Shown: one piece after another, positions 33,295 to 64,000 of the stretch
How positions within the stretch are numbered: position 1 is the stretch's first letter
Layout: every line of letters starts with the position of its first letter
Program-made: the position numbers and the translations under genes
Assembly: GCA_003139095.1 (NCBI GenBank)
Contig: PLHW01000066.1
Location: 125,285-189,284, forward strand
Source: Acidobacteriaceae bacterium
Lineage (GTDB): Bacteria > Acidobacteriota > Terriglobia > Terriglobales > Acidobacteriaceae
Length of the DNA: 64,000 bases
Reading direction: 5' to 3'
The notes under the pieces: generated by a model
Seen by the model: the letters and a program-made list of their open reading frames with translations, nothing else
Told to the model about the DNA's origin: nothing
Databases searched by the model: none

Positions 33295-33440
33295 CCGCAG
33301 GGATAAGCGCTCACGCGCCAAAAAAAAATGAAAAAGCTTGCGAAAGGGAACCAACAGGAAAGAAAAGTATTTGAGTAAAAAATTCTATTTGAGCCAAAAC
33401 TCGGCGGAAAAGCCACAGCCCCACAACCAATAATTTTCTG

Positions 33441-33500
33441 ACCTGAGACCTGAGACCTGAGACCTGAGACCTGAGACCTGAGACCTGAGACCTGAGACCT
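33441..33500. repeat. Perfect heptameric tandem repeat (ACCTGAG x 8.6)
   Basis: Eight identical units ACCTGAG plus ACCT, ending at the stop of the TPR-like gene. The most regular member of the 7-bp class in the window; its perfection suggests recent expansion. Confidence 0.97.
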
Positions 33501-42448: not shown

Positions 42449-42497
42449 CTCGAAGCTCCAAGCTCGAAGCTCATAGCTCGCAGCTCGAAGCTCGAAC
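42449..42497. repeat. Heptameric tandem repeat (GCTCGAA)
   Basis: Seven units: CCTCGAA, GCTCCAA, GCTCGAA, GCTCATA, GCTCGCA, GCTCGAA, GCTCGAA, ending at the stop of the MoaD-like gene. Same consensus as the 14-unit array inside rsmG (62355-62452). Confidence 0.9.
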
Positions 42498-60984: not shown

Positions 60985-61410
60985 CTACTTTGCCGGCAGA
61001 AACTCAATCGTCACATCGCGGCTCGCAGGTTTGAAATCAAAGTCCGCGGTCACGAAAACGCGATCCCGCGAGCCGGACGCCAGTTCGATTCCGAAGGCGT
61101 CCACGTAGGGAATTTCTCTTTTGAGCTTGATCAACTTGAGTTTAATCAGCGACGACCGAACCGCCCGATCGCCATCGGCGGCAACGATCGGAAGCCCAAA
61201 CGAGCTCAAGCGCGAGAGCACCAGTTCCATCGCCGGCCTGCCATGCAACTTGCACGTGATGCCGGCCACCTCGCCCCAATGCAGCGCTGAAACGGCGGCC
61301 ACGCACCCTCCTGCCAAATGACTCTTGATGATCTCCGCCACGCGCGCCGCGCCGGCTTCATCGTCCAGGTACCGCAGAATCGCGCTCGAATCGAGGACGT
61401 ACGTTACCAT
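60985..61410 (-). CDS. PIN-domain toxin (VapC-like)
   Basis: 141 residues: VTYVLDSSAILRYLDDEAGA (first Asp), ALHWGEVAGITCK (Glu), YVDAFGIELA (Asp) and VFVTADFDF (Asp) give the four-acid PIN site. Starts 7 bp before the end of the AbrB-type antitoxin gene, coupled. RNase toxin. Confidence 0.92.
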   Translation of the reverse strand: MVTYVLDSSAILRYLDDEAGAARVAEIIKSHLAGGCVAAVSALHWGEVAGITCKLHGRPAMELVLSRLSSFGLPIVAADGDRAVRSSLIKLKLIKLKREIPYVDAFGIELASGSRDRVFVTADFDFKPASRDVTIEFLPAK

Positions 61411-61640
61411 TTATCCTTCCGCCGCCGCTGGCGTTTAAGTTCCGCGGAAAGGGAAGGCTTGCCGGAAAAAATTCCGCGCGTCTTGTCCACCAACTCTTCC
61501 GACACCGGTTCCAGTACGATCCGCGATCCATCCTGCGTGACGGCGATGCGGGTGCCGGGTCTGATCCCCAGAGATGTTCTCATCTCCGCAGGAATTACAA
61601 ACTGTCCTTTTGTGCTTACCGAAGTTATCTGTCGTAGCAT
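61404..61640 (-). CDS. AbrB/SpoVT-type antitoxin
   Basis: 78 residues: MLRQITSVSTKGQFVIPAEMRTSLGIRPGTRIAVTQDGSRIVLEPVSEELV is the swapped-hairpin AbrB DNA-binding fold; a basic C-terminal part binds the toxin. Upstream, CTTAC and GTAAG (61642-61663) form a weak inverted repeat that may be the operator. Confidence 0.92.
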   Translation of the reverse strand: MLRQITSVSTKGQFVIPAEMRTSLGIRPGTRIAVTQDGSRIVLEPVSEELVDKTRGIFSGKPSLSAELKRQRRRKDKW

Positions 61641-61832: not shown

Positions 61833-61960
61833 TCCCACACAACTCCATCCACGTTCGACGGCCAGGTCACGCCGCCCGTCGCCGTTGAAGTCTCCGACGA
61901 CCATGACTCCCGGATACTGTCCGGGGGCAACCTGCGCCCCGTCATAGAATGCCCCAACCA
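61830..61960 (-). pseudogene. Remnant of an FG-GAP/VCBS repeat protein
   Basis: On the minus strand a frame without start reads FYDGAQVAPGQYPG, then VMVVGDFNGDGRRDLAV and ends at a stop at 61830. DFNGDGRxDLAV is the calcium-binding FG-GAP/VCBS core found in large secreted proteins. Only one repeat is left. It lies between the nested hairpin repeat and a heptameric array. Confidence 0.7.
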
Positions 61961-62028
61961 CTTCTAACTTCTGCCTTCTAAACTTCTGCCTTCGAACTTC
62001 TGCCTTCTGCCTTCTAACTTCTGACTTG
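61961..62028. repeat. Heptameric tandem repeat (CTTCTGC/CTTCTAA)
   Basis: Nine units CTTCTAA, CTTCTGC, CTTCTAA, (one extra A), CTTCTGC, CTTCGAA, CTTCTGC, CTTCTGC, CTTCTAA, CTTCTGA, ending 20 bp before rsmG. A single one-base slip interrupts the period. Confidence 0.9.
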
Positions 62029-62048: not shown

Positions 62049-62960
62049 ATGCTCCCCGCCCGCATCAACGCCCTCCTGGAACCCTTCCTCAACGTGGGAG
62101 CTAGTCTCTCCCCCACTCAACTCGACCAAATCTCCACCTACCTCGATCTCCTCCAACGCTGGAACGCCCGCATCAACCTAACCGCCATCCGTAAAGAAGA
62201 AGGAATCATCCCCCGCCACTTCGGCGAATCATTCTTCTTAGCCCGCCACCTCTTCTCCAATGCCAAAAGTGGCAATCTCCTTTCCTCTCAACAAATGGAG
62301 TCTCAGCCGATCGCATCGACCGTAAGCAGCATCCCATCCGACTCCAGCCTCGACGCTCGAGGCTCCAAGCTCGTAGCTCAAAGCTCGAAGCTCGAAGCTC
62401 AAAGCTCGCAGCTCGAAGCTCAAAGCTCGCAGCTCGTAGCTCGTAGCTCGAAGCTAGTCACCGACCTCGGCTCGGGCGCGGGGTTCCCCGGCCTCCCCCT
62501 AAAAATCTACGCCCCGGAAATCCATCTCACCCTGATCGAGTCCAACCACAAGAAAGCCGCCTTCCTCCGCGAAGTCGTCCGCGCCCTCGCCCTCTCGAAT
62601 GTGAACGTAATCGCCGCCCGCGCCGAAGCACTAATCTCATGCCGTGAAGCAACGCAACCATCGGAATCGAAGGGCAGCGCACTCACCTCGCCCGCCGTCC
62701 CACTCGCCGACGTCGTCACGTTTCGCGCCGTCGAAAACTTCGCCCGAATCCTCCCCGTCGCCGCCCGCCTCCTATCCCCAGTCGGCCGCCTGGCCCTCCT
62801 GATCGGCGCCGCCCAACAACCCGAACTCCACAATCTTCCCGCCTATCGATGGCAAGCCCACAAACTCCCCAACTCCCAAACCCGCCTTCTGGTAATAGGC
62901 CAGGTGGGCAACACACCCAATAAGCGAAGACCCGGCATATATGACCTAAAGTCAATATAG
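62049..62960 (+). CDS. rsmG: 16S rRNA (guanine-N7) methyltransferase RsmG with a repeat-encoded insert
   Basis: 303 residues, against about 210-240 for the family. N-terminal helices (LDLLQRWNARINLTAIRKEEGIIPRHFGESFFLARHLF), SAM loop VTDLGSGAGFPGLPL, LIESNHKKAAFLREV, VIAARAE, VVTFRAVENFARILPVAARLL. Methylates G527 of 16S rRNA. Between RHLF and VTDLGSG about 55 residues are extra: a Ser/Gln-rich stretch and then heptads S-K/Q-L-V/E-A-Q/R-S encoded by a 7-bp repeat. A second extra loop (SCREATQPSESKGSALTSP) lies before VVTFRAVE. The reading frame is intact. Gene followed by parS sites and parA. Confidence 0.93.
   Translation: MLPARINALLEPFLNVGASLSPTQLDQISTYLDLLQRWNARINLTAIRKEEGIIPRHFGESFFLARHLFSNAKSGNLLSSQQMESQPIASTVSSIPSDSSLDARGSKLVAQSSKLEAQSSQLEAQSSQLVARSSKLVTDLGSGAGFPGLPLKIYAPEIHLTLIESNHKKAAFLREVVRALALSNVNVIAARAEALISCREATQPSESKGSALTSPAVPLADVVTFRAVENFARILPVAARLLSPVGRLALLIGAAQQPELHNLPAYRWQAHKLPNSQTRLLVIGQVGNTPNKRRPGIYDLKSI
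62355..62452 (+). repeat. In-frame 14-unit heptameric array (GCTCRAA) inside rsmG
   Basis: Fourteen consecutive 7-bp units, each beginning GCTC (for example GCTCGAG, GCTCCAA, GCTCGTA, GCTCAAA, GCTCGCA), exactly 98 bp. Same consensus as the intergenic array at 42449-42497. Three units equal seven codons, so the peptide repeats every seven residues. Confidence 0.95.
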
Positions 62961-63127: not shown

Positions 63128-63525
63128 TGTTCCACGTGGAACACTGAGCGGTATCCAGTAAGCCAGAAATGCTCCACGTGGAACAGTGCCCGACATCCCC
63201 GCAGGTGGGGAATATCGGGGATGTGTTCCACGTGGAGCATTCGTCTCGGATCGGGGGAACCGAGCAGCGATCTGGGCGGGCGGACATTTCCACCGCTATG
63301 CACACAAATGCTGGTTGCTTTTGGGCGGAGAGATGAATATGCTGACGCGTTCCTCAAGAACCGATCCGGCCCTCGGTGAATGCCGCCGCCCCTCCGAATG
63401 TTCCTCCTATGAATGTTCCACGTGGAACACTTAGGCGGTTTCGGGGCGCTGGGAAGTGGCTGAATGTTCCACGTGGAGCATTGGACTGGTTTCTCTGGTG
63501 GGCGCGTTGTGTTCCACGTGGAGCA
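63128..63525. promoter_or_regulatory. parS: Cluster of six parS centromere sites
   Basis: The 16-base palindrome TGTTCCACGTGGAACA or its one-step variant with GC for TT or AA lies at 63128, 63170, 63224, 63414, 63465 and 63510. It contains the universal parS core (GTTCCACGTGGAAC). ParB binds and spreads from such sites to segregate the chromosome; the parA gene starts 58 bp after the last site. Such clusters mark origin-proximal DNA. No gene in 62961-63582. Confidence 0.95.
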
Positions 63526-63582: not shown

Positions 63583-64000
63583 ATGGGACGAATCATAGCG
63601 GTTACGAATCAGAAGGGTGGGGTCGGAAAGACTACCACCGCGATCAACCTGGCGGCTTCGCTGGCGGCGGCCGAGGTGAACACGCTGCTGGTTGACTGCG
63701 ACCCGCAGTCCAACGCAACCAGCGGCCTAGGGTTCGCCAAAGATCCGGAGCGGATCAGCGTCTACGACATGATGACGGGGGCGGCGTCGGCGGAGGAGGC
63801 TCTCCAGCTTACGGAGCTGGAGCAGCTCTGGCTGATTCCGTCGCACAAGAACTTGATTGGGGCGAACCTCGAGCTGGTGGAGGCGGAGCGGCGGGAGTAC
63901 CGTCTGCGGGAGGCGCTCGCTCCCTTGCGGGACCGGTTCCAGTACATCGTGCTCGACTGCCCGCCGGCGCTCGACCTTTTGACGCTGAATGCCCTGGTAG
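63583..64000 (+). CDS. parA: Chromosome-partitioning ATPase ParA (Soj), partial
   Basis: The first 139 codons are in the window; the gene continues beyond the right edge. MGRIIAVTNQKGGVGKTTTAINLAASLA holds the deviant Walker A (KGGVGKTT), LLVDCDPQSNATSGLG the A' motif, and YIVLDCPPALDLLTLNALV the Walker B region. Dimerises on DNA with ATP and moves ParB-parS complexes. parB is expected next. Strand composition turns from C-rich in rsmG to G-rich here. Confidence 0.97.
   Translation, partial: MGRIIAVTNQKGGVGKTTTAINLAASLAAAEVNTLLVDCDPQSNATSGLGFAKDPERISVYDMMTGAASAEEALQLTELEQLWLIPSHKNLIGANLELVEAERREYRLREALAPLRDRFQYIVLDCPPALDLLTLNALV

Follow-up and report, generated by a model that had tools for sequence, protein, structure and literature searches.

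STRR heptamers, with a 7-bp unit, reportedly lie inside the cyanobacterial rnpB gene, as Vioque is said to have described in 1997; like the array presented here they form a tandem array in a housekeeping gene, but rnpB is an RNA gene and has no protein frame. Rickettsia palindromic elements (RPEs) are dispersed repeats placed in frame in many metabolic genes, where the extra peptides are tolerated (PMC10969869). REPs have been found within coding genes, those of tRNA pseudouridine synthases included, and one pair of species carries different REPs at about the same site of recB (PMC3733652). Heptameric SSRs of the GGGNATC type in Xanthomonas and Nostoc are dispersed, mostly intergenic and sometimes arranged as inverted pairs; 11% are intragenic in Xcc and 7% in Xac, and 68% are intergenic in Nostoc (PMC4692102). 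In-frame palindromes, intragenic REPs and intragenic heptamers are thus already known (PMC10969869, PMC3733652, PMC4692102). New here is that, throughout a genus, repeat families with no relation to one another reuse the same loops. A shallow search, with subscription literature mostly outside it, turned up neither heptamers described in acidobacterial genes nor an account of the RsmG, MnmG or TGT loops.

The array described below stands in rsmG, in a 64,000-nucleotide stretch of an Acidobacteriaceae genome (the window). It shares with RPEs (PMC10969869) and intragenic REPs that a dispersed repeat lies in frame in a protein gene. However, RPEs are palindromes of about 150 bp, whereas the window insert holds a 7-bp tandem array, and several unrelated repeat families occupy the one RsmG loop, depending on the species. 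The array is itself not a palindrome, though AGCT within its units is self-complementary. The likeness to GTAG/CGTC REPs is found in the relatives, whose RsmG loops contain GTGGCGCGGACACTCCTGTCCGC, a stem-loop with a GTAG-like (GTGG) tag. The GTAG form of this element flanks a Y1 transposase gene of genome G007 (a weak match), as in the REPtron arrangement (PMC3733652). Heptamer arrays and repeated use of one loop across a genus are absent from the REP account in the available part of PMC3733652, the main text of which contains no occurrence of "MnmG", "gidA" or "tRNA-ribosyltransferase". With the GGGNATC SSRs the family shares a 7-bp unit, a dispersed, mostly intergenic and partly intragenic distribution, and the occasional arrangement as inverted pairs; it differs in phylum and in having in-frame arrays at fixed loops of RNA-modification enzymes. 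The consensus CTCGAAG contains no G-tracts, and because the array is not G-rich no quadruplex rule applies to it, unlike the GGGNATC type. For comparison with phase-variable contingency repeats, which have near-identical units and a copy number that changes between strains, its units are 83% alike (TRF).

Coordinates are collected in Table 1. Fourteen GCTCNNN units occupy exactly positions 62355-62452, in frame within the rsmG ORF, the first (GCTCGAG) at 62355 and 13 more from 62360 on. The TRF score of this array, 137, is the highest of the window. The array is real and far beyond chance. First-order Markov randomisation of 464 kb, made up of the window and 400 kb of contig 50, left 5 tandem arrays, none of period 7, compared to 68 in the real sequence. 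The initial annotation had counted these 14 in-frame units and had placed an array of the same consensus near 42449; sequence, TRF and ORF coordinates agree with the first statement and TRF with the second.

The gene belongs to the RsmG class by its equivalog profile score above cut-off, its SAM motif and its fold. Pfam GidB matched the protein in two stretches, with 128.3 bits; these two halves of rsmG account for both GidB matches that the genome contains. In Foldseek the best matches of the RsmG model were the RsmG structures 1xdz, 3g8b and 1jsx, and the best named RsmG matches came from MAGs of Acidobacteria group 1 and Candidatus Sulfotelmatobacter.

Table 1. Features of rsmG, of its insert and of related 7-bp arrays in the window.
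Feature	Position	Strand	Evidence
rsmG (gidB), 16S rRNA G527 methyltransferase, 303 aa	62049..62960	+	TIGR00138, 122.9 bits (cut-off 99.5)
Whole loop at site A, 70 aa, between HFGES helix and beta-1	62253..62462	+	Alignment of 26 RsmG
5′ half of insert, 32 aa	62253..62348	+	pLDDT <50 at 75-79, 81-87
7-bp array, consensus CTCGAAG / GCTCNNA	62349..62455	+	TRF: period 7, 15.3 copies, 83% matches
Overlap of the 7-bp array (62349..62455) with predicted helix 105-129		+	AlphaFold
SAM motif I DLGSGAGFPG, intact	62463..62492	+	Invariant columns D139, G141-G143, G145-P147
Other 7-bp array, ACTTCTG type, immediately 5′ of rsmG	61960..62027	+	TRF
Intergenic array, GCTCNNN family	42449..42496	+	TRF; no called ORF around the array

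The GCTCNNA family was searched in the source genome, a draft assembly of 5.5 Mb in 75 contigs labelled G000. The pattern AGCTCNNAGCTCNNAGCTC gave 94 matches (41+53), against 6 (4+2) for its reversed control, and was present in 21 of the 24 genomes of the genus. All 94 matches group into 46 arrays (retrieved stretches and window), 21 of them outside any ORF of at least 60 aa and 4 with coding-like flanks on both sides in an ORF. These four in-frame arrays are located in RsmG, MnmG (GidA), TGT (queuine tRNA-ribosyltransferase) and an 818-aa aldehyde dehydrogenase-like protein. When the window insert was compared by BLAST with its own genome, at least 43 further places were matched, all to the array half only; no match began before query position 90, and no dispersed repeat was recognised in the 5′ half. 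An inverted partner within 200 bp that scored at least 17/21 accompanies 11 of the 46 array rows, where shuffled controls did not exceed 15. For the rsmG array no such partner was found over the same distance: the scores were 13/21 and 11/21, and shuffling gave up to 14.

Within the 464 kb set, 25 of the 39 tandem arrays outside called genes had periods of 7/14 (14 arrays) or 8/16/32 (11 arrays), and 26 of the 29 inside genes had periods that are multiples of 3. Among 7-bp arrays just that of rsmG was clearly internal, two period-14 rows being at the extreme ends of called ORFs. Dispersed 16-mers were about 81% intergenic by bases, and no called gene other than rsmG had an internal copy of one, apart from a DFNGDG protein motif in one gene. 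With its 7-bp unit, many arrays and mostly intergenic location, the family has the features of a dispersed heptameric repeat, and the proposal that an intergenic repeat stands inside a housekeeping gene is upheld. Two other arrays were encountered. A perfect GACCTGA array of 8.7 copies lies in intergenic DNA at 33440-33500 of the window. The 818-aa protein (L183:530-2983, plus strand) has its aldehyde dehydrogenase domain first and a second stretch behind, and the linker carries a GCTCTCA array together with a sequence resembling part of the TGTCCGCC REP.

Twenty-one RsmG sequences were then compared. Besides that of the window, 18 further genus genomes supplied 19, and G029, of another genus, supplied one. 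Five of the 24 genus genomes (G004, G006, G016, G021, G023) gave no Pfam RsmG match and were not counted; as outgroups, 9 of 12 loci were parsed, L005, L007 and L008 being left out. The loop at site A measured 24-88 aa in 20/20 genus sequences and 36 aa in G029. It measured 7-14 aa in 7/9 parsed outgroups and 24-25 aa in the other two, so that the shortest genus loops, some of just 24-30 aa, overlap the longest outgroup loops. In three solved structures of RsmG the aligned ends are separated by 5-9 residues. The GidB match is split near profile position 41-53 in 16 genus genomes, the window's included, and in G029. The lengthened loop is common to all 20 genus sequences, and its sequence varies from species to species. 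The initial annotation had read the insert as a one-off in the essential-fold region. Neither part stands: site A is a permissive loop, short in solved structures and most outgroups, and a strain-specific accident is ruled out by relatives filled at the same site with unconserved sequences. The opposite case, the same insert with conserved residues in all relatives, was not seen either, many of the relatives' inserts being other dispersed repeats.

At least one verified dispersed repeat was found in 12 of the 21 inserts and in none of the 21 cores, using five strict patterns (one mismatch allowed for two REPs, two units required for ACTGG). Nine inserts matched none of the five; two of these show period 7, which brings inserts with a repeat signal to 14/21. 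A period-7 score of at least 17/21 was reached by 7 of the 21 inserts. By eye, degenerate or further palindromes are present in L038, L045, L047, L048 and L049, and nothing repeat-like was seen in L044 and L050. Besides the GCTCNNA heptamers, four families proved to be dispersed. ACTGGNN heptamers occur in 20/24 genomes, with a control that is lower in most, nonzero, and reversed in G013 (0 vs 17). TGTCATCCTGAGCG occurs in 24/24 genomes and the GCGGACANTCNTGTCCGC palindrome in 23/24, both with a control of 0. The fifth is the CCCACTCATC palindrome: BLAST with the whole L032 insert, which covers two palindromes, gave at least 45 further places in G010. Sister species share inserts in part (G010/G001) and differ elsewhere (G003/G009, G007); turnover of the inserts thus looks fast. 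The named MAG L090 has a long insert that includes, by eye, an AACGACC heptamer. A second lengthened place was noticed in L034:588-1409, L041:577-1527 and L090:1501-2547, close to the N-terminus of RsmG, where it separates PFL from the helix that follows; it contains TGTCATTCCGA-type sequence in L034 and L090, and a GGACCAA heptamer also in L034.

Because related species hold other intergenic repeats there, site A looks like a tolerant repeat-docking site. Our preferred reading is that this RsmG loop is a tolerant site repeatedly filled by dispersed intergenic repeats, the enzyme being active and the insert looped out; we give it a probability of roughly 0.7. Alternatively, the array may not have been copied in; replication slippage may have expanded a chance seed already present at the site. 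The unit variants, one or two bases apart, and the mixed-unit arrays that occur elsewhere in G000 would fit such growth, but the same unit family is present at more than 40 other places of that genome, and the same loop in relatives holds REP palindromes, which slippage alone does not produce. Growth in place is thus unlikely.

MnmG and TGT were examined because G000 has GCTCNNA arrays in both, so that G000 itself is ascertained and the other genomes are not. MnmG was compared at 20 loci, one in each of 20 of the 24 genomes; the remaining four, G002, G006, G021 and G022, were omitted, as their best locus encoded a shorter related protein. Period 7 was the best of periods 4-12 in the MnmG loop at 20/20 loci (15-21 of 21), and the score was at least 17 at 16 of them. 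The unit sequence changes between loci (L161:303-2621, minus strand, and L220-L239), and by eye the right array often looks nearly reverse-complementary to the left one (GTCGTTG/CAACGAC, CAGTTCT/AGAACTG). For TGT, 10 of 26 rows could be parsed, corresponding to 9 genes, the other 16 being uninformative; a score of at least 17 was obtained in 8 of the 9 genes (9/10 rows). TGT loop heptamers were seen in L193:1446-2684 (plus strand) and in L250-L267, several of which also carry a reverse TGTCATCC-type REP. In the control, which is not length-matched since it used 120-bp windows of contig 50 and the inserts span 63 to 264 bp, scores of at least 17 were found in 0/2582 coding and 4/535 intergenic windows, and scores of at least 15 in 4/2582 and 15/535. 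Selected intergenic examples from relatives (L277-L279) are near-perfect hairpins with heptamer arms. The RsmG loop is filled at the same site by repeats that differ between species, with five families shown to be dispersed, next to a conserved core, and similar arrays stand in MnmG and TGT.

One point is poorly explained by neutral docking, namely that MnmG keeps its 7-bp period at every locus with a changing unit sequence. It could be that the loops of RsmG, MnmG and TGT are long-lived nurseries of heptamers, where the period is kept and the unit turns over, since the period is useful or self-sustaining. The arrays are often palindromic and at the same codon position across species; if the idea were true, the useful period would be a frame-independent 7-residue peptide or an mRNA hairpin. 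We regard it as a rather improbable extension.

A related possibility is that the arrays have been domesticated, selection keeping the period because the heptad peptide or an mRNA hairpin is functional in RNA-modification enzymes, for instance in protein contact, translation pausing or mRNA stability. The constant MnmG period speaks for it, as do the frequent inverted arms and MnmG insert folding scores of z ≤ −4 at 8/20 loci; the window RsmG insert scores z −4.1, and of the four GCTCNNA arrays that G000 carries in frame, three are in RNA-modification enzymes. However, z is positive at 4 of the 20 MnmG loci, and the RsmG inserts keep no sequence, no period (7/21 above) and no hairpin (z ≤ −3 in 6/21). 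Domestication therefore appears decidedly improbable.

As to the peptide itself, a perfect 7-bp array encodes an identical cyclic 7-residue peptide in all three frames, and is consequently open in every frame or in none. Translation bears out the predicted 7-residue period in every frame. The window heptad reads (K/Q)-L-(V/E)-A-(Q/R)-S-S, with L and A spaced 2/5 and not 3/4, which is not the spacing of a coiled coil. The coiled-coil-like insert suggested by the initial annotation is unsupported by the AlphaFold model also, where the insert forms a linker of low confidence (pLDDT 49-53 over 71-100) followed by one helix of moderate confidence (105-129, blocks 64-84), beta-1 starting at 136; that the insert loops out is most likely correct. 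By hand count, five units have a register able to make TAG and none has a T at the critical base, which is weak evidence since the other units contain only 3 T.

RsmG is probably active, because its core is under purifying selection and the SAM motif is intact. NG86 on the core, for the window gene against five relatives, gave dN of 0.26-0.30 and dS of 0.91-1.32, hence dN/dS of about 0.2-0.33. Among the 26 aligned RsmG, 39 columns are invariant, including most of the SAM motif, and AlphaFold pLDDT is mostly above 90 in the core (SAM-loop block 78, C-terminus 55). In the RsmG tree G000 is a lone, poorly placed branch with no close sister. The gene is generally non-essential, which would suit the idea that RsmG is dispensable and decaying, so that inserts accumulate and its loss would give low-level streptomycin resistance. 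This is very unlikely: the core dN/dS speaks against enzyme decay, the invariant motifs are present, there is no internal stop, inserts are confined to loops, and the loss of function considered in the initial annotation is not indicated. Misassembly of an intergenic array into rsmG, conceivable in a draft of 75 contigs, is hardly credible, as separate assemblies have inserts at the same codon position and frame and coding-like composition are kept on both sides.

We return to the repeated filling of a tolerant loop. Site A would be a surface loop directly before beta-1 and, within the sheet, far from the end with the SAM-binding loop, because by topology the insert enters the N-terminal end of beta-1 and the SAM loop should be at its other end. 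Dispersed intergenic repeats, 7-bp arrays as well as REP palindromes, would be copied into it repeatedly; those that shift the frame or introduce a stop would be lost, and in-frame, stop-free ones would persist and diverge. Heptamer arrays might be accepted easily, because a perfect one reads as the same peptide in three frames. The enzyme would remain active, with the insert looped out as a flexible linker and a short helix; we infer both this retained activity and the neutrality of the inserts. REPs may be copied by a RAYT transposase, and heptamers by slippage or template switching. Y1 transposases are present in 22/24 genomes, and one in G007 (L276 1090-1890, a weak match of 25.1 bits) has inverted GTAGGGCGGACACTCCTGTCCGC pairs on both sides.

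Repeats found in frame are commonly presented as isolated accidents. In this genus the loops of three conserved RNA-modification enzymes fill species by species, the cores being left intact while the loops receive different intergenic repeats. This opens to testing which loops accept insertions, by what route heptamer arrays move and alter their unit, and whether 7 bp is favoured as a frame-independent length that survives in any reading frame.

Two observations concern the neighbourhood of rsmG. Upstream, on the minus strand at 60985-61640 of the window, lies a gene pair made of a MazE-type antitoxin-like gene and a PIN-domain gene. A ParA-type ATPase gene is found at 63583, and the DNA separating it from rsmG contains, at positions 63128-63525, six copies of TGTTCCACGTGGAACA (0-1 mismatch; expected 0), a cluster that we take to be parS-like, so that rsmG appears to lie in a partition/origin-type region.
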